From Chitinophaga deserti (lineage in GTDB: Bacteria; Bacteroidota; Bacteroidia; Chitinophagales; Chitinophagaceae): a DNA stretch of 64,000 bases. Positions 5,618 to 61,322 of the stretch are shown piece by piece. The DNA lies in the NCBI RefSeq assembly GCF_003149455.1, contig NZ_QFFK01000002.1, forward strand, positions 62,001 to 126,000, in the 5' to 3' direction. The notes beneath the pieces are model-generated. The model was not told the DNA's origin. It ran no database searches and saw only the letters and a list, made by a program, of their open reading frames with translations. Positions within the stretch are counted from its first letter, which is position 1. Every line of letters begins with the position of its first letter. The translations under genes were made by a program, and so were the position numbers.

Positions 5618-5760
5618 GTGCATGAAAAGTGCTTGTTGAGTGCATGAAAAGCGCATGATGAGTGCTTGTTAAGTGCTTGTTGAGTGCTTCTCCAGCCGTC
5701 AAAAACCCTTTCTAACTACCTTGTCCTTAACTTGTCCTTAGCTTCATACTAACTTGTAAC
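5618..5760. repeat. Phase-locked 11-base repeat array
   Basis: Within the gene-free stretch 5420-5897. Seven consecutive 11-base units (5618-5694) follow GTGC-W-TG-NNRA: GTGCATGAAAA, GTGCTTGTTGA, GTGCATGAAAA, GCGCATGATGA, GTGCTTGTTAA, GTGCTTGTTGA, GTGCTTCTCCA. Two diverged units follow, then a second motif in the same register (TACCTTGTCCT, TAACTTGTCCT, TAGCTTCATAC, TAACTTGTAAC). The whole stretch is 13 units of 11. A 79-codon reverse frame crosses it but looks spurious. The rest of 5420-5897 shows nothing else I can support. Confidence 0.85.
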
Positions 5761-5897
5761 TGCATTAATACGGTTTCTATGAAAAATCCCCCGGATATAT
5801 TACCATGGCCCTCCATTTCCGAATGGATGACTACCGGCAGGCAGGCTTTTCAATGAAGTATTTTAAACCTACCTTTATCGATCAATAACCGGTAACG

Positions 5898-6998
5898 ATG
5901 AAAGTCTATTTTGATCATCAGATTTTTTCGCTTCAACGCTACGGAGGAATTTCAAGATACTTTGCCAACATTTACAATTCCCTGCAGGATAATGGTCATA
6001 CCGGCTGTAAGCTCACGGTGCTTTACAGCAGAAATCAGTATATACAGAATGTAAAGTTTCCGTTACCCGCCTTTCTTGGCGAAAGGTTATTAAGAAAACA
6101 GCGCAAGCTGGAGAAGTGGAACAGAAAATACTCCGGCTACCTGATTGGTAAGAATGATTTTGATGTACTCCACCCTACTTATTACCATCCTTACTTTTTA
6201 ACGGAGCTGAAAAAGCCCTTCGTTATTACGGTCCATGACATGATCCATGAGCTGTTCCCGGAATACTTTTCCCCTCATGAACAATACGTGCCCTTTAAGC
6301 GGGCAACAATCACGAAAGCCGATCACATTATAGCCATCTCCGAATCCACTAAGAACGATCTTCAGAAAGTCTTTAACATTCCTGATCATAAGATTTCGGT
6401 GATCCATCATGGATACCAGTCAACCGCTCCGGCATTAATGTCTGAAACAGACCATGCATACAAGCCTCCTTTCAAAGACTACCTTCTGTTTGTGGGCGAC
6501 CGATCCGGTTATAAAAACTTTAACCGGTTTGTTCTGGCAGTTCAGCCATTAATGAACCGTTACGATATCCGGCTCATTTGTACCGGAGGCGGGGAGTTCG
6601 GTCCGGCAGAAAGAGAAATACTGATCAGAGCAGGTATTGAAGATAAGGTTATGCAGATTTCCGCTACAGATGCGCAATTGAATACCCTGTATCAGCAGGC
6701 TATGGCATTTGTTTATCCATCACTTTATGAAGGGTTCGGATTACCCATCCTTGAAGCATTCAATAACCAATGCCCCGTTATCACAAGTAACACCAGCTGT
6801 TTTAAAGAAGTGGCCGGTAATGCCGCCGCATATTTCGATCCCTACCAGCCCGAAGATATGACCCGCGTTATAGACGCGGTTATCAACAGCAAAGAAACTT
6901 CCGGTCTTCTGAAAGCCGAAGGCACACGGCAACTTACACGTTTTCCCATGGACCTGTGCATGCAGCGTACGCTGGATGTTTACCGGCACCTCGTGTAA
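5898..6998 (+). CDS. Glycosyltransferase, GT4 family (GT-B fold)
   Basis: 366 residues, a usual GT4 length. The N-terminal acceptor half starts MKVYFDHQIFSLQRYGGISRY, with the glycine-rich loop that begins GT-B enzymes. The C-terminal donor half has the hallmark YEGFGLPILEAF (the E-x7-E nucleotide-sugar motif) followed by CPVITSNTSCFKEVAGNAAAYFDP. It transfers a sugar from a nucleotide donor to a glycan or lipid acceptor in the cytoplasm, but neither can be inferred. It stands alone, with no other polysaccharide gene within 20 kb on its strand, so it may act on a cell-surface glycan made elsewhere. Confidence 0.88.
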   Translation: MKVYFDHQIFSLQRYGGISRYFANIYNSLQDNGHTGCKLTVLYSRNQYIQNVKFPLPAFLGERLLRKQRKLEKWNRKYSGYLIGKNDFDVLHPTYYHPYFLTELKKPFVITVHDMIHELFPEYFSPHEQYVPFKRATITKADHIIAISESTKNDLQKVFNIPDHKISVIHHGYQSTAPALMSETDHAYKPPFKDYLLFVGDRSGYKNFNRFVLAVQPLMNRYDIRLICTGGGEFGPAEREILIRAGIEDKVMQISATDAQLNTLYQQAMAFVYPSLYEGFGLPILEAFNNQCPVITSNTSCFKEVAGNAAAYFDPYQPEDMTRVIDAVINSKETSGLLKAEGTRQLTRFPMDLCMQRTLDVYRHLV

Positions 6999-7101
6999 AA
7001 CGCCCCATTGGTCATCGCAAACATGTTATACATCAAATGGTTTTTATGCCCTGTGCATACTGCCGTTGTTTTGCCGCATAAACAACAAAATTTGATTTGA
7101 C

Positions 7102-7698
7102 ATGACAAGACAAAAAAACTTCCGGGTATGGATGACCGCCCTGTTTCTCATGACCTGCCAGATAGTTATGGCACAATCCGGTCCCGATCTCCGATTTGGT
7201 GTAAAAGCCGGCGGACAATTCAGCAAAGCTTCTGCCCCACAGGATATGTCGTCTAAATTTTCCGGTGGCTGGCATGCTGGTGGCATGGCGCGTCTGGAAC
7301 TGGGACGGCTTTACTTCCAGGGCGAAACCCTGCTGGAACGGCAGACCATGACCTTCAAAAGCGGTAAGGTGGAAGATATCAGGTATAAATCTTATGCGGT
7401 TGGTATCCCCGTAACAGCAGGTTACAAAGTCTGGAAAACGGACGCTGCAAGCCTGCGTATCTTTGCAGGAGGTGTTTACCGCTACAGCTTCAAAGGAAAT
7501 CAGGCAGTGCTCTCCGGTGTTCAATCCGGCCTGAAGAAATTCGATAAATCCAATATTGGCGCTACGGCAGGCATCGGGGCAGACTTTAACCGGCTTACCC
7601 TCGACCTCCGGTATGAGCAGGGGCTTTCCAAATACAGCAGCGACTTTAAAGCCCTTCCGCAGACCCTTTCCCTCAGCGTGGGCTTCTTTCTTTTTTAA
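7102..7698 (+). CDS. Small outer membrane beta-barrel protein, PorT-like
   Basis: 198 residues with a clear signal peptide (MTALFLMTCQIVMAQ). Alternating hydrophobic/polar strands follow: FGVKAGGQFS, ARLELGRLYFQGETLLE, YAVGIPVTAGYKV, IFAGGVYRYSF, ATAGIGADFNRLTLDLRYEQG, and a terminal LSLSVGFFLF ending in F. This is the 8-strand outer-membrane-barrel pattern common in Bacteroidota (PorT/OMP_b-brl_2-like). No function is known. It precedes a LytS/LytTR pair, but a hairpin separates them. A short inverted repeat, GTTGTTT/AAACAAC (7065-7071 and 7080-7086), lies just upstream. Confidence 0.8.
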   Translation: MTRQKNFRVWMTALFLMTCQIVMAQSGPDLRFGVKAGGQFSKASAPQDMSSKFSGGWHAGGMARLELGRLYFQGETLLERQTMTFKSGKVEDIRYKSYAVGIPVTAGYKVWKTDAASLRIFAGGVYRYSFKGNQAVLSGVQSGLKKFDKSNIGATAGIGADFNRLTLDLRYEQGLSKYSSDFKALPQTLSLSVGFFLF

Positions 7699-7721
7699 TA
7701 CCGCTTCTGGTCCATAATTTT

Positions 7722-7752
7722 GACAACCGCAATGCCTTCAATTGCGGTTGTC
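7722..7752 (+). terminator. Strong hairpin after the barrel gene
   Basis: GACAACCGCAAT (7722-7733) and ATTGCGGTTGTC (7741-7752) form a perfect 12-bp stem with a 7-base loop, 24 bases after the barrel stop codon. There is no T run, so it may be a terminator, an attenuator or an RNA-stability stem. It excludes the upstream in-frame TTG (7720) as a sensible start for the kinase. Confidence 0.55.
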
Positions 7753-7782
7753 TGTCGTTCATCACTATTCCATCATCACACC

Positions 7783-8835
7783 ATGATATCGCCGAAATTT
7801 CAAAAGTGGCTCTTCCTTTTATCCTTCTGGATGCTGCTGGCCATCACCGTCTGGCTCCAGATCAAACAAGACCTGCCGCTGTGGCCCTCTATCGCCATTA
7901 CCGTACTTACCATTGCAGGGTCTATCGTTTGTGCCCATATCCTGAGCGATCTTATGCTCGCCCATGCTCTCCGCCAGCGGAACCTGAAGCGCTTCTACAG
8001 CTATGCTTTCTTTATGCTACTGCTCCTGACCGTTTACCTCGGCTTCCTCAACACCCTTTACCTGCTGAAATACCGGCCCGATATGATTAATGGAGATACA
8101 AACTTCCTGTCTGTTTTCTGGGTCCGGTTTTACATCTCCATTCCCTCCTCCCTGCTCATCAATGGCACCCTCTGCGGCATGCGCTTTTACCAGGAGCACG
8201 TTCGTATCGAAAAGAAGCACGCCCAGCTCCAGCAGGCACACCTGGAAGGACAGGTGAGGTTCCTCCAGAGCCAGATCAACCCGCATGTGATGTTCAACGT
8301 GCTGAACCATATTTTTATCCTGATGAAGAAAGATGTGGAAATCGCATCCTTCCTTCTCCTGAAATTCTCCGATGTGCTGCGATACCAGTTATACGAATGC
8401 AACCGCAACCAGGTGAAGCTTTCCAGGGAGATCCAGTACCTGCAGGACCTCGTGGCGGTAGAGCAACTCCGCTGGGGGAATGAGCTGGACGTTTCCTGTA
8501 ACTGGGATATAGAAGATAACGAGTCGCCTATTGCCCCACTGCTGCTGGTTCCGTTCGTGGAAAATGCCTTTAAGCACGTTTCCCGGCTGGAAGGGCATAA
8601 GGGTTATATCAAAATCCATTGCAGTGCACAAGGCGGATTTCTCCGGTTTTATATAGAAAACCCCTACACCATGCTCAGCGGCAAAAGACAGATGAATGCA
8701 CATGGTATTGGCCTGCAAAATGTTCAGAACCGCCTTCAGCTGCAATATCCTAATGCCCACGAGCTTATAATAGACCCGTCGGACCATGTTTTTAAGGTAA
8801 CTTTGGTGCTGGATCTGGGGAAAATCATCATTTAA
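7783..8835 (+). CDS. LytS/YpdA-type sensor histidine kinase (His_kinase family)
   Basis: 350 residues from ATG 7783. The N-terminal half has four hydrophobic segments (about 9-25, 36-60, 72-92 and 112-132). The kinase core then begins with VRFLQSQINPHVMFNVLNHI, where H168 is the phospho-accepting histidine of the LytS family. The ATPase N-box PFVENAFKHV follows, and a late HGIGLQNVQNRLQLQYP G-box. It autophosphorylates and passes phosphate to the LytTR regulator that begins 14 bases downstream. The signal is unknown. The longer frame from TTG 7720 runs through a hairpin and is rejected. Confidence 0.92.
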   Translation: MISPKFQKWLFLLSFWMLLAITVWLQIKQDLPLWPSIAITVLTIAGSIVCAHILSDLMLAHALRQRNLKRFYSYAFFMLLLLTVYLGFLNTLYLLKYRPDMINGDTNFLSVFWVRFYISIPSSLLINGTLCGMRFYQEHVRIEKKHAQLQQAHLEGQVRFLQSQINPHVMFNVLNHIFILMKKDVEIASFLLLKFSDVLRYQLYECNRNQVKLSREIQYLQDLVAVEQLRWGNELDVSCNWDIEDNESPIAPLLLVPFVENAFKHVSRLEGHKGYIKIHCSAQGGFLRFYIENPYTMLSGKRQMNAHGIGLQNVQNRLQLQYPNAHELIIDPSDHVFKVTLVLDLGKIII

Positions 8836-8849
8836 CAAATTGTGCCCTG

Positions 8850-9572
8850 ATGGAAAAGATGAAGTGTTTAGTAATTGACGACGAACCCCTGGCCCGCGAC
8901 CAGATACAGGAATTTGCCCGCCAGCTCGAGTTCATGGAAGTAGCAGGCACTTATGCCTCAGCCCTGGCTGCCACTTCCCGTATTACTCAGGGCGGCATCG
9001 ATCTGCTTTTCCTCGATATTAATATGCCCTATTTATCAGGCCTCGACTTCCTTGAATCCCTCGAATCTCCACCACTCTGCATCTTTATAACCGCCCATTC
9101 AGAATATGCGCTGGAAGGCTTCCGCCTCCAAATCGTAGACTACCTGCTTAAACCTATTGCATTCCCGCGGTTCTACCAGGCTGCCAGTAAAGCCTACCAG
9201 CAATTCCAGCTGCTGGAGAAAAACAAAAACAACCTCCCTGCGGAAGATGCCATCTTATATGTAAAACTTAATGACCAGTTCGTAAAAATATCGTGGCCCG
9301 ATATCCTTTTCGTGGAAGGCATGCAGAACTATACCAAGCTGCATTTTAAAGATAAGGTACTCACCATACATCAAACGCTTGTGGCGCTGGAAGAATCGTT
9401 ACCAGCGCAACAGTTCTTCCGCATCCATAAATCCTACCTCGTTAATATTTCCCACATCGACATGATCTCCGGAGGCCGCGTGTTTGTAGGTAAGCATGAG
9501 CTGCCAATTTCCCGCGCAAAGAAGGAAGATCTCCTGAACCAGGTGGTATATAAAAAACTCATCAGCCGCTAA
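8850..9572 (+). CDS. LytTR-family response regulator
   Basis: 240 residues. The receiver domain (about 4-120) has acidic residues DDE at 10-12, phospho-acceptor D56 in LLFLDINMP, T81 in TAHS and K101 in LLKP. The C-terminal LytTR DNA-binding domain (about 140-240) contains DILFVEGMQNYTKLH and FFRIHKSYLVNISHID. It is the partner of the kinase immediately upstream. Neighbouring targets may include the barrel genes on either side, but no LytTR operator pair was identified. Confidence 0.93.
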   Translation: MEKMKCLVIDDEPLARDQIQEFARQLEFMEVAGTYASALAATSRITQGGIDLLFLDINMPYLSGLDFLESLESPPLCIFITAHSEYALEGFRLQIVDYLLKPIAFPRFYQAASKAYQQFQLLEKNKNNLPAEDAILYVKLNDQFVKISWPDILFVEGMQNYTKLHFKDKVLTIHQTLVALEESLPAQQFFRIHKSYLVNISHIDMISGGRVFVGKHELPISRAKKEDLLNQVVYKKLISR

Positions 9573-9590
9573 CCATTGTATTCTTATATT

Positions 9591-9634
9591 AAAAAATCCT
9601 GTATCCCCAGGGTTTTAAGCCCGGCAATACAGGA
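9591..9634 (-). terminator. Rho-independent terminator of the 9663-10571 gene
   Basis: On the minus strand, TCCTGTAT (9634-9627) and ATACAGGA (9604-9597) form an 8-bp stem with a partly paired loop. Six T follow (9596-9591). It lies 29 bases after the stop of the minus-strand gene and also separates it from the convergent LytTR gene. Confidence 0.75.
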
Positions 9635-9662
9635 AGTGTATGAACGATCAGGATATGGATGA

Positions 9663-10571
9663 TCAGGGCATATTTAACTTAAGGGATATGGCGCCATAAA
9701 AGGTGGTGGTGAACCGGGGATCAACCTTATTCATCCCGCTAAATATCCCTTTCAGAGAGCGTTCACTTTCCTTGAACGACCTTGCCAGTGTGGTGCCCGC
9801 AGTAAGCCCTACCGTCCAGGATTTATTCAGTCTCACTTCAGGGCGCAATCCGGCAGTGATCTGCTGATAACCCAGCAGGATGGATTTTCCGTCTTTTTCC
9901 TTCTCCACCGTCATACCACTGAGCCCCAATACTGCTTTCAGTCCCAGGTTTGGATTAAACTGGTATCCGATGTCTGCGCCTTCGGGCAGGTTTACGTTTA
10001 CTTTGAACTTCGTTCCGGTGGTCCAGCTGAAGTATAAACCCGGCATTACCATGGGCACGCCGAAAGCATTGGACACTACCGGACCGAGGCCAGCTGCGAG
10101 GCGGGGGTTAAATTGCTTCACAAAAATAACACCGCCCTGGAGGAGCACATCATTCCTGTCTATCTGTGTCATATCTGTGTATACACCCACACCGGCCATG
10201 GTATATAACGACCAGTTTTTCTTCATAGGAATAATATGCTTCAGGCCCACCTGGGCATTGAGCATTTCAGTGGGAAAGAGGGGCTTCTCGTAATCGCGGT
10301 TGGTCATTTTGGCGTAGGCACCATCCAGCACCACAAACCATCGGGCAGCCTCATCTGCTTCCCGCTTGCGGAAAGAGAAGGGTATCATCACCGTCAGTTT
10401 CATGCGTTTAAAATCGCTCGTACTGCCGGTTTTGAGACTGTCTTCGGGGCGAACGTAATTAGAGAAGGGAACGTATTCGGCAGTGAGTTCCGCCGCTACT
10501 TTATTCTGTGCATTGGTGATATGGGTTACCAGCATCAGGGCGCCAACGCAGCAACAGGTTTTAAATTTCAT
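9663..10571 (-). CDS. Outer membrane beta-barrel protein, DUF6268-like
   Basis: 302 residues. The signal peptide is MKFKTCCCVGALMLVTHITNAQ. The rest consists of amphipathic strands (KLTVMIPFSFRKRE, WFVVLDGAYAKM, LNAQVGLKHIIPMKKNWSLYTMAGVGVYTD, MPGLYFSWTTGTKFKVNVNLP) ending in AISLKLNMP. The layout resembles DUF6268-type putative barrels, but that assignment is from pattern memory. The function is unknown. It is a single gene with its own terminator. Confidence 0.65.
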   Translation of the reverse strand: MKFKTCCCVGALMLVTHITNAQNKVAAELTAEYVPFSNYVRPEDSLKTGSTSDFKRMKLTVMIPFSFRKREADEAARWFVVLDGAYAKMTNRDYEKPLFPTEMLNAQVGLKHIIPMKKNWSLYTMAGVGVYTDMTQIDRNDVLLQGGVIFVKQFNPRLAAGLGPVVSNAFGVPMVMPGLYFSWTTGTKFKVNVNLPEGADIGYQFNPNLGLKAVLGLSGMTVEKEKDGKSILLGYQQITAGLRPEVRLNKSWTVGLTAGTTLARSFKESERSLKGIFSGMNKVDPRFTTTFYGAISLKLNMP

Positions 10572-10709
10572 CAGACTTAGTATTTAAACGCAAAGGGAGC
10601 CTATTGCGATGGCGCCGGGAAATCCTTTTGACCATCTGTCGGTTTGGACGGATTACCTGCGGGTATAGCCGGACAACTTTTCCCTAATTGTTTAAATCCT
10701 AAGCCTGCT

Positions 10710-10742
10710 TTTAAACACAAGTGCCTCCAACCCGGAGGCACT
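10710..10742 (-). terminator. Rho-independent terminator of the GDSL hydrolase gene
   Basis: A perfect 9-bp stem AGTGCCTCC/GGAGGCACT (10720-10728 and 10734-10742) with a 5-base loop, followed on the minus strand by TGTGTTTAAAAG. It begins 5 bases after the stop codon. Confidence 0.75.
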
Positions 10743-10747
10743 ACCAG

Positions 10748-11584
10748 TTAATACCGTTTCATCACTTTCACCAGCATCTTTGTGATGGCCTTGTATCCTT
10801 CGTCGGAAGGGTGAAGGCCGTCGTACGTCATCCAGATAGCCTCCGGGGGATAAGGGTAAGCGTCGTTAGCGGGGTTCCATGGTTTATCACGATAGGCAGG
10901 CCATGTTAGCTTTTGGGTTGCTCCTGTAGTGGAATCTTTCAGCAGTTTAAAGTGAACCATATTCTTCAGGTTGATGCCGCTATTATGATACAGATCTATC
11001 AGTTCGAACTTTTCATGCCTCGCAATTGAATCTATTACACGTACGATAGCCTCCAGCATCTGCCCGTTTTTATTAGGTCTGTAAGAACCCCAGGCATTGT
11101 TATGGGAATTATTCAGATAAACGAAATCCCCCCGCTGCAAAGGCGTCATCAGGATAAAACGGGCATTGGGATTGAGGTGCTTCAGTTTATCGATGATAAT
11201 CCGGAATGAACCACTTACGGTTGCATTTCCGGATGCAGATAAATAATCCTTCATAGTACCCGGCTCCCGGCCCTGCCACCAATCGTTCGTACCCAGAAAC
11301 ACAGAGTAAATATCTGCCTTAGTGATGTTCAGCTGATCGAATTTATCTGCTATTCCCCCGGCCGTCCAGCCATTGTGGCCCTGATTGATGTACGTAATGT
11401 GCGGGAGGCGCTCCGTCACCATGGTCAGGTACCCTTTCGTGATGCGGTTCCCCGTTTCATTTGGGTGATCGTTGAGGTACGTAATCGAATCCCCTATGGC
11501 CACCCAGGTTAAGCGTGGTGGGAGGAAGGAGGTGCAGCTAAGGGATATGATTGCGAGAAGGATCGCTTTAGTGATAGCATTCAT
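10748..11584 (-). CDS. SGNH/GDSL-family hydrolase, secreted lipoprotein
   Basis: 278 residues. The N-terminus (ILLAIISLSC) fits a lipoprotein signal peptide. SGNH blocks are in order: block I TWVAIGDSITYLND (catalytic Ser), block II glycine in HNGWTAGG, block III FLGTNDWWQG (Gly/Asn oxyanion), and block V YDGLHPSDEGY with the catalytic Asp/His pair. Such enzymes cleave esters, often acetyl groups on carbohydrates, here probably in the periplasm or at the surface. The substrate is unknown. It is a single gene with its own terminator, next to the AT-rich nuclease gene. Confidence 0.87.
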   Translation of the reverse strand: MNAITKAILLAIISLSCTSFLPPRLTWVAIGDSITYLNDHPNETGNRITKGYLTMVTERLPHITYINQGHNGWTAGGIADKFDQLNITKADIYSVFLGTNDWWQGREPGTMKDYLSASGNATVSGSFRIIIDKLKHLNPNARFILMTPLQRGDFVYLNNSHNNAWGSYRPNKNGQMLEAIVRVIDSIARHEKFELIDLYHNSGINLKNMVHFKLLKDSTTGATQKLTWPAYRDKPWNPANDAYPYPPEAIWMTYDGLHPSDEGYKAITKMLVKVMKRY

Positions 11585-11614
11585 AGTTTCAATAAATTGA
11601 AAACAACTAATTAA

Positions 11615-12817
11615 TTATACTACTTCTATATTATCAAATATAGGTAGTTCATTTTCCCAATGATAACGAAGTACTTGAATGTTAATAGATTTCAAAAATT
11701 CATCTAATTTAGGTGTAACATTCATTTTACTTACTAATATCAAAGTAACACGCCCCTTTGCATCCTTATATCCTGCACTATAAAACAACAACTGGCCTAT
11801 CGCCGTAAATAGACTTTGTGTACTATTGGGTGTTTTAACCTCAATCAATCGAATTGTTCCTGTTACCGGATCTGTTACTATTAGATCTCTCCATTTATCA
11901 TTGGAAACAACATATCCCTTTCCTTTAAAATAATCATGCAATGCCCGTACGACTCTTCCGTGTGTTCTATTGACTGTTCTTTCGTTTGCTATGGCATTGA
12001 AAGAGTATGTCCCTGAAAATTCATCTGTAAAACTAGCTTGTATAGGCACAGATAAAATATTTGATATTTCACGGTAAAATCGTTCACCCCCAGTTGCTAC
12101 TTCAACGTTAAATTCAATCCCTGTATCTTGAAATTCATTTGCTGCATTTTCGATATCCATAATATGCTTGCCAATCCAATTTTTCAATTCGCTATAAGCT
12201 CCTATAACATTTCGTAAATCGTTCATTAATTCATCATCTCCAGGCAAATCACTACGGTCATATTGCTTACTAATAATTGTTCCTAATTCATATTTATCCC
12301 CCCACTTATTAGTACCATCTAGCTTAATCCGTGTGGTTAAAAAATCTGCTTTAGATCGTAAGTTTTTTTGGGCATACTCCGTCGTTTCCCGGATTCTTAC
12401 TTTACCTTCTTTTACTTTGAACTTTGTATTGTAAGGCGTCCAACTTTGCACTAATGTCAAATAGACCTTTTTCATGTTGGCATCAAACAAATATGCTACA
12501 TAATATCCATCACTTGGAGAATCTGTTATGTCCAAATCAAAGATGCATACATGCGGTGTTTCCGTTATATTACCTTGCCCAATTGAACCAGATACCTTAT
12601 ACCTTTTTGAATCTAGGTGAATACTCTTCCGTATTTCTTGCGGCAGGTCAACGGTCATTAAATTGTATATAGATAGGTCACTAATCTTGCGATTCGAATT
12701 GCTTGGGCTATAATACGCCTCTTTTTCACTTAAATACCTTTGGAAGATCGTTTCAATAATTTCTCGTAACATGGGATATTGGGATGGGTTATCGCAAATT
12801 AACGGTTTATATACCAT
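11615..12817 (-). CDS. Probable Type IV-like restriction nuclease: MrcB_N-like domain plus PD-(D/E)XK
   Basis: 400 residues from ATG 12815-12817 (an ATG at 12832 adds five). The N-terminal half resembles the MrcB_N (DUF3578) domain of McrB-type proteins: SGSIGQGNITETPHVCIFDLDITDSPSDGYYVAYLFDANMKKVYLTLVQ, broken by a variable insert after about residue 125. The C-terminal 110 residues fit a PD-(D/E)XK nuclease. A helix HGRVVRALHDYF is followed by D316 in RDLIVTD, then E331-V-K333 in LIEVK, then IGQLLFY. The N-domain reads modified bases in relatives. There is no McrB GTPase nearby. The gene is clearly AT-rich (19 G+C in the 60 bases from 12001) against about 47% in the next gene, which suggests recent transfer. 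Confidence 0.6.
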   Translation of the reverse strand: MVYKPLICDNPSQYPMLREIIETIFQRYLSEKEAYYSPSNSNRKISDLSIYNLMTVDLPQEIRKSIHLDSKRYKVSGSIGQGNITETPHVCIFDLDITDSPSDGYYVAYLFDANMKKVYLTLVQSWTPYNTKFKVKEGKVRIRETTEYAQKNLRSKADFLTTRIKLDGTNKWGDKYELGTIISKQYDRSDLPGDDELMNDLRNVIGAYSELKNWIGKHIMDIENAANEFQDTGIEFNVEVATGGERFYREISNILSVPIQASFTDEFSGTYSFNAIANERTVNRTHGRVVRALHDYFKGKGYVVSNDKWRDLIVTDPVTGTIRLIEVKTPNSTQSLFTAIGQLLFYSAGYKDAKGRVTLILVSKMNVTPKLDEFLKSINIQVLRYHWENELPIFDNIEVV

Positions 12818-12840
12818 TTTGAGAACCCCCATCCCCCTGA

Positions 12841-12873
12841 AACCAAAATCGGCCGCAGAAACCTGCGGCCGAT
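12841..12873 (-). terminator. Rho-independent terminator of the lipoprotein operon
   Basis: ATCGGCCGCAG/CTGCGGCCGAT (12848-12858 and 12863-12873) is a perfect 11-bp, very GC-rich stem with a 4-base loop. On the minus strand it is followed by TTTGGTTTC. It ends the operon whose last gene stops at 12906, and it isolates the AT-rich nuclease gene. Confidence 0.82.
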
Positions 12874-12905
12874 GAATCCAAGACTAAACTCAAAGTATAC
12901 GAAGA

Positions 12906-13610: not shown

Positions 13611-13671
13611 GGAAATCATAGTTAATAAACGGGTTGAGGGTGAAACAATATTAATCGGGTTTCTAAAAAAC

Positions 13672-16177: not shown

Positions 16178-16185
16178 GGTTTTCG

Positions 16186-17505: not shown

Positions 17506-17529
17506 CCCTGGTACGTATATGGATGCCAA

Positions 17530-27867: not shown

Positions 27868-27991
27868 TACTGTAATGGTACCTTATAGTATATAAATCGC
27901 TGCTTTTCCTTTACTGTATTGGGTTTGGATGGCTTTTATATACAGTATATATACAGTAACCCTTCTTTAAATCAGAAGTAACCCTACAGTA
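27868..27991. repeat. 11-base-spaced TACTGTA/TACAGTA motifs in inverted arms
   Basis: The gap 27811-28091 carries TACTGTA at 27868 and 27912 (44 apart, 4 x 11). On the other side the reverse complement TACAGTA occurs at 27941, 27952 and 27985 (11 and 33 apart). The unit between the last two, TCAGAAGTAAC, is a diverged copy in register. The motifs thus sit at multiples of 11 within each arm, and the arms face each other. It lies between the 3' ends of the convergent Crp/Fnr and kinase-like genes. The rest of the gap shows nothing else. Confidence 0.7.
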
Positions 27992-28035
27992 AAGCCGGTT
28001 TATGTGGCACAAATCCCCCCGGCTGCCCATAAACA

Positions 28036-50166: not shown

Positions 50167-50231
50167 ATTACGGTTAACGTTGATACGGTTTTCTCAATAA
50201 AGATGCTTCAGCACCTCGAACAAATATAAAG

Positions 50232-50252: not shown

Positions 50253-50533
50253 AGTCCAAATTTTAAAAAATTATCAGCAGATGTATTAATTTATTGATAG
50301 CTGTTCAATATGGAATAGGAATTGCTGTATTATTATTTCAAGTAACAAATTAACATTTATCATATGCGATTGAAACGTATATAAGCTTTACTCCAATGGG
50401 TAATGCGTTATATACAAACATTGGGTGGAATATGCGCTGTAAATTTCTTATCTTTCTCGTGTGAAAACCCGACCGGATATTTCCGGAAAACTGAAGAACC
50501 ATATCGAAAGAACCATATCGACAGAATTAAGAC

Positions 50534-51610: not shown

Positions 51611-51645
51611 ATCGATTTTGTGCCAGGTTACAAAGCTGAACTGTA

Positions 51646-53462: not shown

Positions 53463-53579
53463 AAATTGAGTATTCCTTATGTGGCAAGTTAACGCGCATA
53501 CGGTTTGGCGCAGGCTACTTAAATCAGTATAAAACCACGCCAACAGCGATAAAAGGGTACTTATGGGAGGAAGGGGCGC

Positions 53580-54371: not shown

Positions 54372-54418
54372 ATGACGAAAGGTATACTTTTTTAAGAACC
54401 TTTTCCTACTTTGGGTAC

Positions 54419-56566
54419 ATGAAACGTCTTTTTTGTATCATAACCGGCTGCCTAGGATGGGTGCACGCGGTAACTGCCCAGATAGATCCTGCTGCCCTTC
54501 AGCAGTGGCGCGACCGAAAATATTCCATGTTCATCCACTTTGGCGTATACAGTAAGCTGGGTGGCGTATGGGAAAACAAGCAGATCAGCCGTGGCCTCAG
54601 TGAACAGATCCGCGCACATGCCGCAGGATTATATAGCGATGCCTATGAAGAAGTGGCACAGGGCTTTAATCCCGACCGCTGGAACCCCGACAGCATCGCA
54701 TCGCTCGCTAAGCGCGCAGGTATGGGCTCTGTAGTTATTACCTCCAAACATCACGATGGCTTCGCCCTGTGGGATTGTGCGTTTACGAAGTTCGATATCA
54801 TGGATGCCACTCCTTACAAAAGGGATATCCTGAAGGAACTGTCTGACGCCTGCCGCCGCCAGGGCATCGCTTTCGGTTTATACTTTTCACTGATCGACTG
54901 GCATTTCCCTCCGGCCATGCCCATCTCCGGTCACAACTCAGACTCCATCACTCCTGCACACCACACTTACAACATGCAGCAGATGACGGAACTGCTGACA
55001 AAATATGGCCCTGTATCCGAACTATGGTTCGATATGGGACAGATGACCCGGCAGCAAAGTGAAGAGATGCGTGCGCTGGTGCATAAACTACAACCCAATT
55101 GCCTCATCGGCAGCCGTATCGGTAACAACCAGGGCGATTTCACCGTGATGGGCGATAACCAGGAACCCGACTACATCATTGGCGTACCCTGGCAAAGCCC
55201 CGCTTCTTTTTTCCATGAAACCTGGGGCTACCGTTCCTGGCAGGAGCGCGGAGACATCAATGCAAAGATCCGGGAGAAACTGACGAGCCTCGTAAAAGTT
55301 GCTTCGCGGGGTGGCAACTTCCTGCTGAACATAGGGCCCCGTGGCGATGGTACTGTTGTGGAGTTCGAACGGGATGTATTACTCACCATTGGCCAGTGGC
55401 TGAATCAGCACCGCGATGCTATTTATGGTACAGCCCCCGATCCCTTCCATGTTGCATTTGACTGGGGCAGCATCACCAGCAGGAATAACAAATTGTATCT
55501 CCACCTGATGAACCGGCCCGCTAACAACGCCATCCTCCTGCCCGGCCTGAAAGGCAACGTAACAATGGCACAATTGATGGGCAAGGGAACTAAATTGAAA
55601 TACACAGCGGGGAAAGACGGACTGCAGATTCAGCTGCCAGAAAACCTCGACATGAGCGGGCTGTTCCAGGTAATTGAATTGACATTGCCCAACGGGTATA
55701 CCGTGCCGCCGGCCAACATCCGTGCGCTTACCCCGGGCCTTACGCTGGATAATTCCAATGCGTTCCCCTACTTCAGCAATGCCACTATCGATTACAATAC
55801 CAATTTCACCAGTACAATTAAAAATGCCTGGGCATTGGAGCCACAAAGGAGCGGCACAAACCGCCCCACTCTCACGTATTCAAAAGAAGAGCAGGGCCGT
55901 ACCATCGACCTCCAGCTGGGCAGCACCTCAACCGCGGTACGTCTGGAAGGAGGAAAGGCGGTGCAGCTGAATAATGATATCGCCAGTCTGCAAACGGGCC
56001 CTATCCATGTGCTGGGACCATTGTATTCAGGTGTTGGCGGAACACATGGTTCCCTCACGGATGTAGACCTGTCCAAGCCCTGGCCGCGTCAGGATGGCAA
56101 GCGCTGGACGGCACACCCCGAATGGAAGAACGGTACGCAATATTCCCTGGAGGCACAGCGCCCTGCAGGGGCCATGACGGCGCATTACCTGTTGCAGGAA
56201 ATTACTGCACCCACCGCCCGTAACGTGCTCGTTAAGATCACCAGCGGCGATGCCATCATGGTGTTCCTGAACGGGAAACAACTGCTGCTGCAGAATAACC
56301 CTCTGCGCGAACCCCGGATGGATCATTACATATTGTTGCCATTACAGGCAGGCAAAAACCAGCTCAGTGTGAAACTGTTCAATTACTTCCTGAACGCTGT
56401 TCCCTTCAATATTGATTTCAATGTGCCGCAGGAAGTGTATCAGCTTACGTTGCCGGAAGTACGCCTGCAGAAAGGAACTTACTTCCCTGTAAGCTGGCAA
56501 CTGCACAACCCTTCCACACCACACGATGAAATGGGGTTGCCAAACCTGAAACTGACGTTTGAATAA
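54419..56566 (+). CDS. Alpha-L-fucosidase, GH29
   Basis: 715 residues, signal peptide to about residue 21. The GH29 catalytic barrel (about 25-340) shows YSMFIHFGVYSKLGGVWENKQ, VITSKHHDGFALWDC, GLYFSLIDWH, and the nucleophile D205 in SELWFDMGQ, followed by GNFLLNIGPRGDG. A further beta-rich region of about 370 residues follows, with a probable carbohydrate-binding domain near the end. It removes terminal L-fucose from glycans in the periplasm or outside. It lies near a capsule operon that makes GDP-L-fucose, so the cell's own polymer is one possible substrate; plant or animal glycans are the usual ones. Confidence 0.93.
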   Translation: MKRLFCIITGCLGWVHAVTAQIDPAALQQWRDRKYSMFIHFGVYSKLGGVWENKQISRGLSEQIRAHAAGLYSDAYEEVAQGFNPDRWNPDSIASLAKRAGMGSVVITSKHHDGFALWDCAFTKFDIMDATPYKRDILKELSDACRRQGIAFGLYFSLIDWHFPPAMPISGHNSDSITPAHHTYNMQQMTELLTKYGPVSELWFDMGQMTRQQSEEMRALVHKLQPNCLIGSRIGNNQGDFTVMGDNQEPDYIIGVPWQSPASFFHETWGYRSWQERGDINAKIREKLTSLVKVASRGGNFLLNIGPRGDGTVVEFERDVLLTIGQWLNQHRDAIYGTAPDPFHVAFDWGSITSRNNKLYLHLMNRPANNAILLPGLKGNVTMAQLMGKGTKLKYTAGKDGLQIQLPENLDMSGLFQVIELTLPNGYTVPPANIRALTPGLTLDNSNAFPYFSNATIDYNTNFTSTIKNAWALEPQRSGTNRPTLTYSKEEQGRTIDLQLGSTSTAVRLEGGKAVQLNNDIASLQTGPIHVLGPLYSGVGGTHGSLTDVDLSKPWPRQDGKRWTAHPEWKNGTQYSLEAQRPAGAMTAHYLLQEITAPTARNVLVKITSGDAIMVFLNGKQLLLQNNPLREPRMDHYILLPLQAGKNQLSVKLFNYFLNAVPFNIDFNVPQEVYQLTLPEVRLQKGTYFPVSWQLHNPSTPHDEMGLPNLKLTFE

Positions 56567-56583
56567 ATAAAATGAAGTGATAA

Positions 56584-56620
56584 AAAAGGCCTGTGCAGTA
56601 ATGCCAGGCCTTTTATTTTT
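56584..56620. terminator. Rho-independent terminator after the fucosidase gene
   Basis: AAAAGGCCTG (56584-56593) and CAGGCCTTTT (56605-56614) form a perfect 10-bp stem, followed by ATTTTT. A-rich sequence on the other side lets it also serve the convergent Rieske gene (stop at 56642). Confidence 0.85.
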
Positions 56621-56641
56621 GCGTGTGATTTACAGACTATA

Positions 56642-56986
56642 TTACCAGCTGAGCCAGCTTTTCTCCATACCTACATAAAGGCCGTCATCCCGCCGCTCAA
56701 TAGGGTAGGTTTTTAAGTAAAACCCTTCCCCGCTGGAATTGTATCCGTTCCGAAGACTGAACTTATAGCGATGCAGGGGGCATACCACATTCCCGCGTTC
56801 ATCGAGAAACCCGTCTGACATGATGCCTCCTGCATGGGGGCATTTATGTGCAAAAGCAAACAACTCGCCACCGTGCCGCGCCACGCAGATCTTCTTTCCG
56901 TTTACTTCCTGCTGGGTAATCTGTGATTCTCCCGCCACCGGATCGTCCGCATCCGCCAGCCGGTACCAGTTATATTGCTTCGCCAT
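56642..56986 (-). CDS. Rieske [2Fe-2S] ferredoxin-like protein
   Basis: 114 residues, one Rieske domain. The ligand motifs are CPHAGG (C-x-H) and CPLHRYKF (C-x2-H), separated by 16 residues. There is no signal peptide, so it is cytoplasmic and could feed electrons to an oxygenase or reductase that is not nearby. Its ATG overlaps the hflX stop (TAATG), so the two are translated together. No functional link is known. Confidence 0.9.
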   Translation of the reverse strand: MAKQYNWYRLADADDPVAGESQITQQEVNGKKICVARHGGELFAFAHKCPHAGGIMSDGFLDERGNVVCPLHRYKFSLRNGYNSSGEGFYLKTYPIERRDDGLYVGMEKSWLSW

Positions 56987-58176
56987 TAAAAGAAGAATTC
57001 GGTTTTGTAAGGGAAACGCTCCCTGTAAAGCTCCACTACCTTCTCCATGATTGTTTTCCGCAGCTCTTCGATGTTACGGCGTTCGGTAGCGGAAATAAAC
57101 ACACAGTTTCCATGTGTGCGGTGCTGCCAGCTTTCTTTCAGCTGATTGAGCATATCAGTTTTCACATCTTCCGTCAGCCATTCGTCGAAGGTCTGCGTTT
57201 CGTACAGGTCCATTTTATTGAAGATGAGAATAGTGGGCTTGTCGAGCGATTTCAGCTCGGTCAGCGTTCTGTTCACTACTTCAATCTGATCTTCATACTT
57301 GGGATGGCTGATATCCACCACATGCATGAGGATGTCGCTTTCGCGTACCTCATCGAGGGTAGACTTGAAGCTTTCCACCAGGTGGTGCGGCAACTTACGG
57401 ATGAAACCTACGGTATCGCTGAGGAGGAAGGGTGTTTGCTCGAACACAACTTTGCGGGTGGTGGTATCGAGGGTAGCAAACAGTTTGTTCTCCGCGAACA
57501 CATCGCTTTTGCTGAGCAGGTTCATGATGGTGCTTTTCCCCACGTTGGTATAGCCAACGAGGGCAACACGGATGTATTCACCACGCTCCTTCCGCTGGGT
57601 GAGGGATTGCTTATCGATTTCGGCAAGGCGCTTCCGGAGGAGGGCGATCTTGTCTTTTACGATACGACGGTCTGTCTCGATCTCAGTTTCACCCGGTCCC
57701 CTCATCCCGATACCGCCTTTCTGGCGTTCCAGGTGGGTCCACATACCCCGGAGGCGGGGCAGGATGTATTGATACTGGGCCAGCTCTACCTGCACCTTAG
57801 CCTGGGCTGTGCGGGCACGCCGTGCGAATATATCGAGGATGAGATCGCTCCGGTCAATAACCTTCACTTTCAGCTCTTTCTGGATATTGGAGATCTGTGA
57901 GCCGGTAAGCTCGTCATCGAAAATAACCAGCTGGATGTCTTTCCCGGCCACGTACTGCCGTACCTCTTCCAGCTTGCCTTTCCCGATAAAGGTGGCCCTG
58001 TCGGGGTGGGGCAGCCTTTGGGTAAAGCGCTTCACTGCCGTGGCTCCGGCAGTTTCCGCCAGAAATGCCAGCTCGTCCAGGTATTCCTGTACCTGGGGTT
58101 CCGATTGCTCTTTGTGGATCAGTCCGATCAGCACTGCCCTTTCGTCCTGGGCTACTGCCTGTGTTTTATCTATCAA
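56986..58176 (-). CDS. hflX: Ribosome-associated GTPase HflX
   Basis: 396 residues. The N-terminal HflX domain (about 15-185) has QVQEYLDELAFLAETAGA and the GKGKLEEV-type glycine stretch IGKGKLEEVRQYV. Then LRGMWTHLERQKGGIGMRGPGETEIETDRR and the GTPase: G1 LVGYTNVGKST, G3 DTVGFIRKLPH, G4 NKMD and G5-like VFISATE. HflX splits stalled or stressed ribosomes. The frame begins with TTG (58174-58176); the N-terminal residues fit the family and no in-frame ATG is near, so a rare TTG start is likely. Confidence 0.95.
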   Translation of the reverse strand: MIDKTQAVAQDERAVLIGLIHKEQSEPQVQEYLDELAFLAETAGATAVKRFTQRLPHPDRATFIGKGKLEEVRQYVAGKDIQLVIFDDELTGSQISNIQKELKVKVIDRSDLILDIFARRARTAQAKVQVELAQYQYILPRLRGMWTHLERQKGGIGMRGPGETEIETDRRIVKDKIALLRKRLAEIDKQSLTQRKERGEYIRVALVGYTNVGKSTIMNLLSKSDVFAENKLFATLDTTTRKVVFEQTPFLLSDTVGFIRKLPHHLVESFKSTLDEVRESDILMHVVDISHPKYEDQIEVVNRTLTELKSLDKPTILIFNKMDLYETQTFDEWLTEDVKTDMLNQLKESWQHRTHGNCVFISATERRNIEELRKTIMEKVVELYRERFPYKTEFFF

Positions 58177-58277
58177 TGTTCTTGCAGAATTTGTGCAAAG
58201 TTAATGAATTAGCCCGGCGTCCGGCATGAGGCCAAATTTTCCTACATTTATGCCTCACCACAACAAAATCTGAACCA

Positions 58278-60287
58278 ATGCGTAAAACATTCCTGTTAGC
58301 AGGTATTTTATTCATTCAACAAGGCATGGCACAGCAAACAATGACGCCCGAGCTGCTCTGGAAGCTCGGCAGGGTAAGCGGGGAAACAGTGCTGGAAGAC
58401 GGAACGGTTATTTTCGGCGTGTCCCGTTTTAACCTCGCAAACAATAAAAGCGAACGCAACCTTTATGCCCTCCCGGTTACGGGCGGCGCTCCCCGGCAGC
58501 TTACTTCAGCCCCCGGAGGCGAATCTTTCGTGAAAGCCCTCCCCGGCGGCCGTATCCTTTACAGCCATAAAGGCCAGCTCTGGGAAATGGAGAAAGACGG
58601 AGCCAATCCCGTACAGAGAACGCATGTTGAAGGCAGTATAGCCAATGCCCGCATCTCTCCGGATGGTAAGCATATCCTGTTTTCCCGGGAGGTGGAAATG
58701 GAAAAAGTGCTGGCGAAAGATAAATACACCGATCTCCCCAAGGCTAACGCCCATATCTATACCAATCTGAACTACCGCCACTGGGATACCTGGGAAGACG
58801 GGAAGTATAACCACGTATTCTACGCGGATTTCGACCCTGCTACCGGCAACATCGGTACCCCGGTGGATATTATGGCCGGAGAACCGTTCGACTGCCCGCA
58901 GATGCCTTTCGGCGGTGCGGAAGACTTTATCTGGAGCCCCGATGGCAGCCAGATCATCTATGTATGCAAGAAAAAACACGGCCGTGAATATGCCGTAAGC
59001 ACCAATACAGACATCTACCGTTATACGCTGGCTTCGCAAAAAACCGAAAACCTGTCTGAGGGCATGGCCGGGTACGATGTAGCCCCCCAGTTCAGCTCCG
59101 ATGGCAAAAAGCTCCTGTGGCAGAGCATGGCTAATGACGGCTTTGAAGCGGATAAGAACGATGTAATAGTGCTGGACATCGCTTCCGGCAAAAAAAGCAA
59201 TCTTACTGCAAACTGGGATGGTACCGTAGCATCCGCCCGTTTTGCGGCCGATGGTAAAACCATTCATTTCCTCGCTGTAGCCAAAGGCACAGAGCAACTC
59301 TTTACCGTACCTGTTGCAGGTGGTACCGTGAAGCAGCTCACCAAAGGGCAGCACGATATCAACGGTTTTGTGGGCCAGCACGGGCAAACGCTGGTGGTTA
59401 CCCGAACCGATATGAACCATGCGGCCGAATTATTCACCGTGAACCTGAAAGATGGCGCGGTTGCTCCGCTTACACAGGTTAACAGCGACATTTACGGCAG
59501 CCTCAAAATGAGCAAAGTATCCGAACGCTGGATCAAAACTACAGATGGGAAAGACATGCTGGCATGGGTGATTTACCCGCCAGACTTTGACCCGAATAAA
59601 AAGTACCCCACACTCCTTTACTGCCAGGGAGGCCCGCAAAGCGCCCTCAGCCAGTATTACTCTTTCCGCTGGAACTTCCAGCTGATGGCTGCGCAGGGGT
59701 ACATTGTAATAGCGCCCAACCGGCGTGGTATGCCCGGCCATGGTGTGAAATGGAATGCCGATATCAGCAAAGACTGGGGCGGCCAGCCCATCCGCGATTA
59801 CCTCTCGGCAATCGACGATCTTTCCAAAGAATCCTATGTGGATAAAGCACGCCTTGGCGCAGTGGGAGCCAGCTATGGCGGATATTCCGTATTCATGCTG
59901 GCAGGGGTACACGAAAAAAGATTCAAATCCTTCATTGCGCACGACGGGCTGTTCGACCTCCGGAGCTGGTACGGCACCACGGAAGAGCTGTGGTTCGCCA
60001 ACTGGGATATCGGCGCCTATTTCGATAATGCCAACGCCAAATCCTACGAGCAATTCAACCCCAGCAACTTCGTGAACAAGTGGGATGCCCCTATTATGAT
60101 CGTGCAGGGCGGTATAGACTTCCGCGTAGGCATCGAGCAGGGCCTGCAGGCATTTCAGGCCGCGCAACTGAAAGGTATCAAAAGCAAGCTGGTGTACTTC
60201 CCTGAAGAAAACCACTGGGTATTGGGCGCACAAAATGCCATTACCTGGCAGCGCGAATTTTTCAGCTGGCTGAAAGAAACTTTGTAG
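58278..60287 (+). CDS. S9-family serine peptidase (acylaminoacyl/dipeptidyl-peptidase type)
   Basis: 669 residues with signal peptide to about residue 18, so it is exported. A seven-bladed beta-propeller (about 25-410; WSPDGSQIIYV and ISPDGKHILFS repeats) covers an alpha/beta-hydrolase. The catalytic Ser is S532 in GASYGGYS, Asp is D614 in QGGIDFRV and His is H646 in EENHWVLG. The oxyanion segment is YCQGGPQS (the usual H of HGGP is C-Q here). It trims short peptides in the periplasm. It is a single gene with its own terminator. Confidence 0.92.
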   Translation: MRKTFLLAGILFIQQGMAQQTMTPELLWKLGRVSGETVLEDGTVIFGVSRFNLANNKSERNLYALPVTGGAPRQLTSAPGGESFVKALPGGRILYSHKGQLWEMEKDGANPVQRTHVEGSIANARISPDGKHILFSREVEMEKVLAKDKYTDLPKANAHIYTNLNYRHWDTWEDGKYNHVFYADFDPATGNIGTPVDIMAGEPFDCPQMPFGGAEDFIWSPDGSQIIYVCKKKHGREYAVSTNTDIYRYTLASQKTENLSEGMAGYDVAPQFSSDGKKLLWQSMANDGFEADKNDVIVLDIASGKKSNLTANWDGTVASARFAADGKTIHFLAVAKGTEQLFTVPVAGGTVKQLTKGQHDINGFVGQHGQTLVVTRTDMNHAAELFTVNLKDGAVAPLTQVNSDIYGSLKMSKVSERWIKTTDGKDMLAWVIYPPDFDPNKKYPTLLYCQGGPQSALSQYYSFRWNFQLMAAQGYIVIAPNRRGMPGHGVKWNADISKDWGGQPIRDYLSAIDDLSKESYVDKARLGAVGASYGGYSVFMLAGVHEKRFKSFIAHDGLFDLRSWYGTTEELWFANWDIGAYFDNANAKSYEQFNPSNFVNKWDAPIMIVQGGIDFRVGIEQGLQAFQAAQLKGIKSKLVYFPEENHWVLGAQNAITWQREFFSWLKETL

Positions 60288-60301
60288 AATAGTCAAACAA
60301 T

Positions 60302-60335
60302 ACAGCGGTCCTCCGGGGCCGCTGTTCTCATTTTT
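60302..60335 (+). terminator. Rho-independent terminator after the S9 peptidase gene
   Basis: ACAGCGGTC and GGCCGCTGT (60302-60310 and 60317-60325) pair with one wobble around a 6-base loop. TCTCATTTTT follows. Confidence 0.7.
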
Positions 60336-60353
60336 ATCGCAAAAAACCATTCC

Positions 60354-61139
60354 ATGTTCAACTCCTTACTGTACGAGGTTCACCAAAACATCGCTACCAT
60401 TACCCTTAACCGTCCGGATGTTTATAACGCTTTTAACGACGAGCTCAGTTATGAATTGCAGGATGCCCTGAAGCAGGCAGACAAAGATGCTTCCGTACGC
60501 GCCGTGGTGCTTACCGGGGCTGGCAAAGCCTTTAGCAGCGGACAGGATCTGAAAGCCGCAATGGGGGCAGACGGGAAGCCCCGAAACCTGGGCGATTCCC
60601 TGCATAAGCGGTACAATCCCATCATCCGCGCCATCCGGAATATGCCCAAGCCGGTTATTTGCCGGCTGAATGGTGTGGCTGCCGGGGCCGGATGCTCGCT
60701 GGCACTTGCCTGCGATGTGATCATTGCTTCTGACCAGGCCTCTATGATAGAGATATTTATCAACATCGCGCTGGTGCTCGATTCCGGCTCTTCTTACTTT
60801 CTGCCACGGGCCGTGGGCTACCACCGTGCTTTTGAGCTGGCTACCAAAGCCACGAAGCTGACCGCCGCAGAAGCGAAGGAAATGGGCCTCCTCACCAAAG
60901 TGGTGCCCGCTGCTGAGCTGGATGCTGCCGTGGCGGCAGAAGCGGAATTTTACGCCAATGCCCCTACGAAAGCCATTGCCCTCATGAAAAAAATGCTGAC
61001 CAAAGGCATGACCGAAAACCTGGATGCCGTACTCGAATATGAGGCATACTGTCAGGAAATCGCCGGAAATACGACCGATAACAAGGAAGGAGTAACCGCA
61101 TTCCTTGAAAAGCGGAAACCGGTGTTTACGGGTAAATAA
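60354..61139 (+). CDS. Enoyl-CoA hydratase/isomerase, PaaG-like
   Basis: 261 residues, crotonase fold. ATITLNRPDVYNAFNDEL, VLTGAGKAFSSGQDLKAA (first oxyanion region), and ICRLNGVAAGAGCSLALACDVIIAS (second). Later AVGYHRAFELATKATKLTAAEAKEMGLLTKVVP. It hydrates or isomerises enoyl-CoA in fatty acid or phenylacetate breakdown. The catalytic-site residue pattern (LVLDSGSSYFLPRAVG, Asp in place of the second Glu) is like PaaG/PaaB isomerases. It stands alone, so the pathway is uncertain. Confidence 0.9.
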   Translation: MFNSLLYEVHQNIATITLNRPDVYNAFNDELSYELQDALKQADKDASVRAVVLTGAGKAFSSGQDLKAAMGADGKPRNLGDSLHKRYNPIIRAIRNMPKPVICRLNGVAAGAGCSLALACDVIIASDQASMIEIFINIALVLDSGSSYFLPRAVGYHRAFELATKATKLTAAEAKEMGLLTKVVPAAELDAAVAAEAEFYANAPTKAIALMKKMLTKGMTENLDAVLEYEAYCQEIAGNTTDNKEGVTAFLEKRKPVFTGK

Positions 61140-61168
61140 ATACAACTGAGCTTCTCCACTATCAAAAT

Positions 61169-61194
61169 AAAGGCCCCTACAATGGGGCCTTTTT
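61169..61194 (+). terminator. Rho-independent terminator after the enoyl-CoA hydratase gene
   Basis: AAAGGCCCC/GGGGCCTTT (61169-61177 and 61184-61192) is a perfect 9-bp stem with a 6-base loop. The T run continues to 61194. Confidence 0.88.
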
Positions 61195-61212
61195 GCTAAA
61201 ATTCTACCTGGT

Positions 61213-61322
61213 TCCTTCATCGAACCTTCTACAATCCTTCTACCAACCTTCTACCAAACACCATCAAACCCCAGCAAAATCAAGGGTTCGATGAAGGATA
61301 GTAGAAGGTTGGTAGAAGGATG
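61213..61322. repeat. 11-base repeat array with two inverted segment pairs
   Basis: Ten 11-base units in one register. Left half: TCCTTCATCGA, ACCTTCTACAA, TCCTTCTACCA, ACCTTCTACCA. Two or three diverged units follow, then the same motif reversed: GATGAAGGATA, GTAGAAGGTTG, GTAGAAGGATG. Segment A (61213-61226) has its exact reverse complement at 61285-61298 (14 bp). Segment B (61234-61254) has its exact reverse complement at 61301-61321 (21 bp). The order is A-B-A'-B', which cannot fold as one simple nested hairpin. The rest of the gap 61140-61546 holds two terminators and nothing else I can support. Confidence 0.88.

Follow-up and report, generated by a model that had tools for sequence, protein, structure and literature searches.

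Dispersed short repeats of bacteria are usually one-word families. The arrays described here differ in that the conserved property is a length (words with no visible kinship, one unit size, at about 150 places by extrapolation), and they raise a concrete and testable question: what in the cell fixes eleven? The starting point was a 64,000-nt window of the Chitinophaga deserti genome (bases 62001–126000 of contig C12, NZ_QFFK01000002.1; genome 6.33 Mb, 23 contigs), in which a sequence-only reading had reported three intergenic gaps with 11-base arrays, a common period and no common motif. Array 1 (5612–5760) and array 3 (61213–61325) were clear both by Tandem Repeats Finder (TRF, run on the window at score 30) and by a gap-free repeat search, while array 2 has only two exact copies and weak units. 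In the contig and a relative, an exact 11-nt register is held across motifs, arrays are in excess at gene 3′ ends, they persist in place, and at several loci their units change in blocks.

Gaps between open reading frames (ORFs) of at least 100 amino acids across C12 (782 kb; 298 gaps of at least 60 nt, 79.8 kb) were scanned by scoring match runs at each lag from 4 to 40, using Markov resamplings as control. At a score of at least 14, segments numbered 18 for period 11, 10 for period 22 and 5 for period 33; no other period exceeded a single segment (10, 14, 20, 21, 30 and 39 had one apiece), and three resamplings gave a single segment, of period 16. At a score of at least 11, period 11 was represented by 29 segments versus 0.0 in the resamplings. 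TRF, used as an independent method, found period 11 at 21 places and period 22 at 12 on the contig. Periods 9, 10 and 12, proposed as the comparison that could undo an 11-base rule, were found 1, 1 and 0 times; in the relative (about 91% identical; aligned over 718 kb in matches longer than 2 kb, the 30 longest 86–95% identical) they were found 1, 3 and 1 times versus 24 places for period 11. Without any threshold, lags 11, 22 and 33 were the top three among lags 4–67 in intergenic DNA of the contig, and likewise in the relative. Lags 10 and 32 had no excess and lag 21 little (robust z-scores 0.9 and 1.4); with lags 11, 22 and 33 highest and arrays of 7, 8, 13 and 14 nt in other genomes, selection for B-DNA helical phase has little support. 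Arrays of score at least 12 at period 11, 22 or 33 were carried by 19 gaps of C12, so about 150 such gaps are expected in the genome by extrapolation. The 11-base pattern is beyond chance genome-wide and more extensive than the sequence-only reading had it.

The 41 period-11 segments of the contig and its relative were sorted into 11 motif families. The best match between families over all rotations and both strands averaged 5.45 of 11 positions versus 5.48 for shuffled units, with 119 of 200 shuffles as high; as had been proposed, the period is common and the motif is not, and by this comparison the eleven families appear no more similar than chance. No kinship to a single ancestral motif was visible at these values and that candidate was set aside, although common descent may be present without being visible. 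By pattern matching, arrays 1 and 3 belong to larger families scattered over the genome and are not one-off cases. For the array-1 family, three successive AGTGCWTGNNN units (at most 2 mismatches) gave 64 overlapping matches in the own genome, grouped at about 13 places, versus 0 with the pattern reversed; in the same genome the pattern of array 1b (Table) gave 7 matches at up to 3 mismatches versus 1 for its reversed control. Array 3 belongs to a superfamily CCTYC-NNNN-WW, with 78 overlapping matches in the own genome versus 3 for the reversed control, 60 versus 6 in G041, 72 versus 9 in G043, 41 versus 0 in G003 and 6 versus 0 in G012; no match was found in G004, G008 or G040. Across the genus, 19 of 79 genomes match, the own included; since 7 of these have only 1–2 matches and two match-free genomes show 2 control matches, the safer count is 12 of 79 (at least 5 matches). 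Of 149 sampled genomes of the order, the own among them, 3 match; besides the own genome, one has a single match and one has 2, and one of this pair also shows a control match. The variable tetramers differ among species; because the CCTYC core is part of the search pattern, the variety of the tetramer is supported and the constancy of the core is not. Ahead of some CCTYC elements (C12 211000–211060 and 538900–538960) a near-palindrome around TGCAAAAC is followed by YTACTGAC; this may mark the edge of the element or be a site of binding.

Gap orientations were assigned from ORFs and are rough, two of the 19 labels on C12 being wrong: the gap at 67184 holds tRNA-Asn and is hence tandem, and the gap at 123220 lies between a hydratase gene and an outer-membrane-protein gene and is hence convergent. 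With the uncorrected labels, to which the p values belong in both genomes, 11 of the 19 array gaps were convergent versus 22% expected by length (p 0.0008) and 1 was divergent; in the relative 9 of 22 were convergent (p 0.03), 10 tandem and 3 divergent. Hand correction of C12 gave 12 convergent and 0 divergent gaps. Within tandem gaps of both genomes the array was closer to the 3′ end in 14 of 17 (p 0.013, a value too good because many of the 17 are orthologous pairs). Placements were also collected with one locus per place, drawn from the loci fetched: places matching the CCTYC pattern elsewhere (n = 13) were 7 convergent, 4 tandem, 1 divergent and 1 within an ORF, the places in G004 had the same four counts, and the array-1 family (n = 11) had 2 convergent, 6 tandem, 2 divergent (one being array 1 of the window, mislabelled owing to the tRNA) and 1 unplaced. 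Arrays prefer gene 3′ ends. The proposal that all three window arrays lie downstream of genes and not in promoters holds for array 3 and probably for array 2, which follows a CRP-type regulator gene, but array 1 both follows one gene and precedes the next.

Array loci were compared with the relative at 17 places (772650 without an anchor; 333960 and 538980 without an identity score), and 260 of the 298 gaps were aligned, 38 being left out for want of anchors or because of length limits. Array columns (1,338) were 72% identical versus 92% for the other intergenic columns (77,182). None of the 12 insertions or deletions (indels) in arrays was shorter than 9 nt and 4 were multiples of 11, versus 237 of 1–4 nt and 7 multiples of 11 among 284 elsewhere. 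The excess of multiples of 11 had a Fisher p of 0.0004 over all indels and of 0.21, not significant, over indels of at least 5 nt; about 4 array indels of 1–4 nt were expected from the rate in the other columns, and 0 of 12 were seen. Whole-unit length differences between orthologues were 11, 22 and 44 nt. The array 3 gap has equal length in the relative, with no indels, and CCTTC-TACC-AA units stand opposite CCTTC-AGTG-AT units in both arms, so that substitutions fall at 18 of 28 tetramer positions versus 1 of 35 core positions; for three loci pooled the counts were 21 of 72 and 4 of 90. At C12 241500, ACCTTTGAG units stand opposite ACCTATAAG in the relative; units of AGTG type and ATCC type replace one another at 211055 and, in the opposite direction, at 666040; and at 58160 and 711980 differing units occupy the same gap in the two genomes. 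In array 1 a few units differ, set within near flanks that are near-identical, and at 538980 the presence of the array differs between the species. In these alignments, several orthologous arrays retain their place and register while their units change in blocks.

Other genomes were sampled for the same period. In 100 kb each of four more Chitinophaga genomes, period-11 segments numbered 3 in G008, 1 in G012 and 1 in G007, and G014 had none, with periods 7, 13, 14, 23, 25, 26, 28, 38 and 39 instead; a long array of 13-nt units (GTTAAGGTGAGTT) was seen in the latter at L212 17802–18046. Among 49 named loci, mostly of 20 kb and treated as Chitinophaga (one is titled Flavihumibacter and one [Flexibacter]), period 7 (11 segments) and period 14 (8) outnumbered period 11 (5). 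Another 31 named loci, including four titled C. pinensis that are only 65–69% identical, contained one period-11 array at the scan score (L198, Parachryseolinea), and 20 pieces from other families of the order contained no period-11 array, several arrays there having periods 7 and 8. Units of 7 nt (AATTACG-like) or 8 nt (CAAATCCC, GTTTATTG-like) were seen to form inverted arrays in loci of other Chitinophaga and Bacteroidota (L154 9734–9986, L162 9896–10000, L178 18241–18378, L241 7976–8721), the inverted pairs of L154 and L162 being of 7-nt units; these may be the same phenomenon with a different unit length. The site of array 3 holds an array in 4 of 26 genomes (by eye). In C. barathri another repeat, TGCGAGGAGC...GCGCCAAAG with period 40, lies in the array-3 gap (L125 10795–10857; L099, 3′ of the hydratase gene). 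On a tree of the hydratase, 11-nt arrays occurred in the 20-kb samples of 6 of 13 rows on the side of the window (the window itself included, with its label set by hand) versus 1 of 37 on the other side; a clade-restricted rule is not claimed, as G004, taken as a member of the 37-row side, has many 11-nt arrays. Since other Chitinophaga and Bacteroidota loci have arrays of 7, 8, 13 or 14 bases, eleven is not universal: the rule stands for the own genome and its relative; it characterises certain genomes and does not extend to the genus or the family.

Our tentative preference, given somewhat less than an even chance, is that the arrays form a numerous, dispersed class of extragenic elements resembling satellites, whose register is a by-product of unit-wise copying and overwriting. 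Each element would consist of head-to-tail 11-nt units, often as two arrays opposed around a short loop, and whole units would be gained, lost or overwritten by copying from neighbouring units, from the opposite arm or from dispersed copies. Whole-unit copying would preserve unit length, so that sequence drifts and register stays, as in eukaryotic satellites. Spread may have occurred by recombination or some mobilising function, and the position at 3′ ends would be at least partly due to change being tolerated there. Any function would most likely be architectural, the array serving as a platform of boxes at 11-bp spacing. Several observations weigh against this account. Pure copying leaves one unit length in 11 families with no visible kinship unexplained and needs one ancestor or a length-fixing step, and no mobilising gene was found, Y1_Tnp being the only family tested. 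The phase-specific substitution is nearly all from one locus, with array 3 supplying 18 of the 21 tetramer changes. Arrays were more conserved than the remainder of their own gap at 8 of 14 loci and less at 6, for which reason the contrast of 72% with 92% partly reflects the kind of gap that carries arrays, and there may be constraint. When bounds were set by hand and extended by 12 nt, three of the nine indels at or near arrays were short (1, 3 and 4 nt), and alignment programs favour substitutions over short gaps within repeats.

The greater conservation of arrays at 8 of 14 loci favours a rival account, in which one or more oligomerising, spacing-reading DNA-binding proteins would occupy short boxes arranged head to tail, one in every 11 bp. 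Selection would keep the register, the box varying by family (CCTYC, CTTG, ACCT, GCAT, TATA) and the bases between boxes being free to change. This is quite possible, though distinctly short of probable. The register runs through the loop into the opposite arm: the distance from CCTYC to GRAGG modulo 11 (commonest phase) was 2 in 10 of 12 elements of the contig and relative and 3 in one orthologous pair, and it was 1, 2 or 3 in all of 12 hand-picked two-armed elements of the own genome (distances 69, 78–80 and 90), two of which were also in the first set. Because the elements are paralogues, and the first 12 include five orthologous pairs, descent with whole-unit changes explains the common arm phase as well as selection does. 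Read by eye, the TATA box of L203 is at one position in ten successive right-arm units, and among the 6 units of the left arm it comes a base earlier in 4. Proteins that bind tandem 11-bp repeats are known: PhoP binds the 11-nt head-to-tail direct repeat units of the PHO box (PMC7866108) and ParR of plasmid R1 binds the 11-bp direct repeats of parC (PMC9426499). Any binder of the present arrays is nevertheless hypothetical; the arrays are mostly at 3′ ends and not in promoters, eleven families would require many proteins or a very loose reader, the recurrence of CCTYC in the genus is conditioned by the search pattern, and other genomes have arrays of 7 or 8 nt. The copying account and a spacing-reading protein can both be true. 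Less likely than not, in our estimate, is the broader idea that these Chitinophaga genomes contain an unknown activity which gauges a length of eleven bases of DNA and creates or preserves arrays of that unit regardless of sequence, with versions gauging seven or eight in related genomes. The candidates would be a copying enzyme whose template length is fixed and an oligomeric protein whose step is 11 bp.

The opposed arms could instead have been selected as a hairpin, in RNA (A-form, 11 bp per turn) or in extruded DNA, with the arms co-varying for pairing. Folding of seven loci gave long hairpins at 123240 (array 3), 417080 and 211130 in the own genome (z −3.4 to −6.5) and at 241500 in the relative (z −3.1), but no advantage over resampled sequence was seen at 58160, in either genome, or at 241500 in the own genome (z −0.2, −0.4 and −0.4). 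In array 3, 7 base pairs were changed on both sides and still pair, 7 were broken by one-sided change, and 1 was changed on both sides and broken. No inverted partner array was found for array 1 or for the array-1-family copies read, their period being the same notwithstanding, and phase across a loop would be irrelevant to pairing. The terminator scan, which covers loops of at most 8 nt and so leaves long-loop hairpins outside its reach, reported none in array 3; both its matches fell in the separate adjoining hairpin (Table), and within that scope an intrinsic terminator (GC-rich stem and T run) is poorly supported for the array itself. Because of the missing partner arrays and the loci that fold no better than resampled sequence, a hairpin function is improbable. 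Ordinary replication slippage, acting with no length preference and no function, would yield whole-unit gains and losses as its expected product, but it should also yield a spread of periods, and one period dominates across eleven motif families; we consider it very improbable. The sequence-only reading had pointed to a generating process (slippage or helical-phase selection) or to a protein that reads spacing; a generating process and such a protein stay leading, and helical phase and simple slippage do not.

In the window, the features of the three arrays were defined as listed in the Table. TRF assigned period 11 to 5628–5689 (5.6 copies) and period 22 to 5615–5687 in array 1, with a second period-11 stretch at 5720–5744 (2.3 copies), and the gap-free search gave six copies spaced 11. 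Wrapped at 11 nt and read directly, the (GTGCTTGTTGA)n part and the next (CTTGTCCTTAA)n part share one register. The bare word GTGCTTGTTGA (at most 2 mismatches) had 15 matches in the window versus 16 expected, and it is the tandem order, not the word, that stands out. Array 1 has tRNA-Asn (5303–5377) on one side and, on the other, a glycosyltransferase gene of the same direction that starts at 5898. In some copies of the array-1 family (window 5460–5610, C12 about 772500–772700 and L006) a longer common stretch lies upstream and includes a repeat, TTTGGGTYGT, of about 10 nt; the family may therefore consist in part of a longer unit, mobile or duplicated. Array 2 scored under 12 in the contig scan; it has more TTTACTGTA-like boxes at 27910 (+) and at 27941, 27952 and 27985 (−), its orthologous stretch in the relative is 92% identical over 402 columns, and the ORF that follows it, on the other strand, has no Pfam match. 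Array 3 is formed by two arrays in opposite orientation; the repeat search gave arms of 43 nt, 81% complementary, at 61229–61271 and 61284–61326. Its two neighbours, whose 3′ ends face it, are by Pfam genes for an enoyl-CoA hydratase and an outer-membrane protein; the hydratase protein is 98% identical to its closest match among named records, LR632930.1. An antisense ORF of 284 amino acids (60366–61220), without a Pfam match, overlaps the hydratase gene and disturbed the ORF-based gap labels. TRF also gave periods 7, 9, 10, 12, 14, 15 and 18 in the window, several inside ORFs. The sole Rfam match in the window at gathering score was tRNA-Asn, and a known RNA family was thus rejected for the arrays.

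Table. Coordinates of the array features and the adjoining hairpin in the window.
Feature	Position	Strand	Basis
Array 1a: tandem 11-nt units AGTGCTTGTTG / AGTGCATGAAA, about 6–7 copies	5612..5697	+	TRF, repeat search
Array 1b: spacer and (CTTGTCCTTAA)n part, register as in array 1a	5698..5770	+	TRF 5720–5744, 11-nt wrap
Array 2: weak element, two exact copies of TATATACAGTA at 27937–27958 and further ACTGTA/TACAGT boxes	27904..27995	.	TRF, box search
Array 3, left arm: units TCCTTCATCGA ACCTTCTACAA TCCTTCTACCA ACCTTCTACCA	61213..61256	+	TRF, 11-nt wrap
Array 3, central loop	61257..61284	.	
Array 3, right arm: inverted units (GAAGGATAGTA GAAGGTTGGTA GAAGGATGG)	61285..61326	-	Inverted repeat, hairpin fold
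Separate terminator-like hairpin between hydratase gene and array 3	61169..61192	.	Terminator scan

Close genome pairs with word-swapped orthologous arrays constitute a natural experiment, and other Chitinophaga species, with their arrays of 7 and 8 nt, can be set beside them. Among the openly licensed papers listed by the searches, no description of 11-nt multi-motif arrays in Bacteroidota was recognised. The centromere parC is single and carried by a plasmid, whereas the present arrays are dispersed over the chromosome; no match to the parM or parR families was found among ten window ORFs scanned with Pfam. The likeness to parC/ParR of plasmid R1 (PMC9426499) is in the 11-bp direct repeats. 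The PHO box has the same 11-bp head-to-tail direct repeats but a fixed motif upstream of regulated genes (PMC7866108), where the present arrays have many motifs near 3′ ends. The promoter placement of the PHO box and of OmpR-PhoB operators was generally not seen, array 1 nevertheless also being upstream of a gene start. The REP/BIME elements with their RAYT transposase (PMC2817692, PMC3733652) are similar in their many extragenic copies and inverted pairs; REPs are single short palindromes, tied in the RAYT case to a tyrosine transposase. Here the units are 11-nt tandem copies instead of a single 20–40 nt palindrome, and array 1 has no inverted partner. The Y1 transposase family PF01797 (Y1_Tnp) had 0 matches in the own genome, 5 of 14 genomes matching as control, and a Y1-transposase REP model was rejected. 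Cyanobacterial STRR heptanucleotide repeats are dispersed short tandem arrays between genes, as are the present ones, with a unit of 7 nt in place of 11; period 7 gave 0 segments in C12. Closest to these arrays are the heptamer direct repeats, TAACTGA and others, reported from Beggiatoaceae, Cyanobacteria and some Bacteroidetes (PMC4679880); that work includes longer arrays in several Bacteroidetes, some with close relatives lacking obvious repeats at that place. In both cases short direct-repeat arrays of fixed unit length lie between genes, many per genome, and any reader is putative. TAACTGA is one fixed 7-nt word, which in the Beggiatoa genome for the most part immediately precedes start codons; that placement was not seen here, where convergent gaps are enriched and tandem-gap arrays lie nearer 3′ ends, and the unit is 11 nt long, takes many words and often forms inverted pairs.

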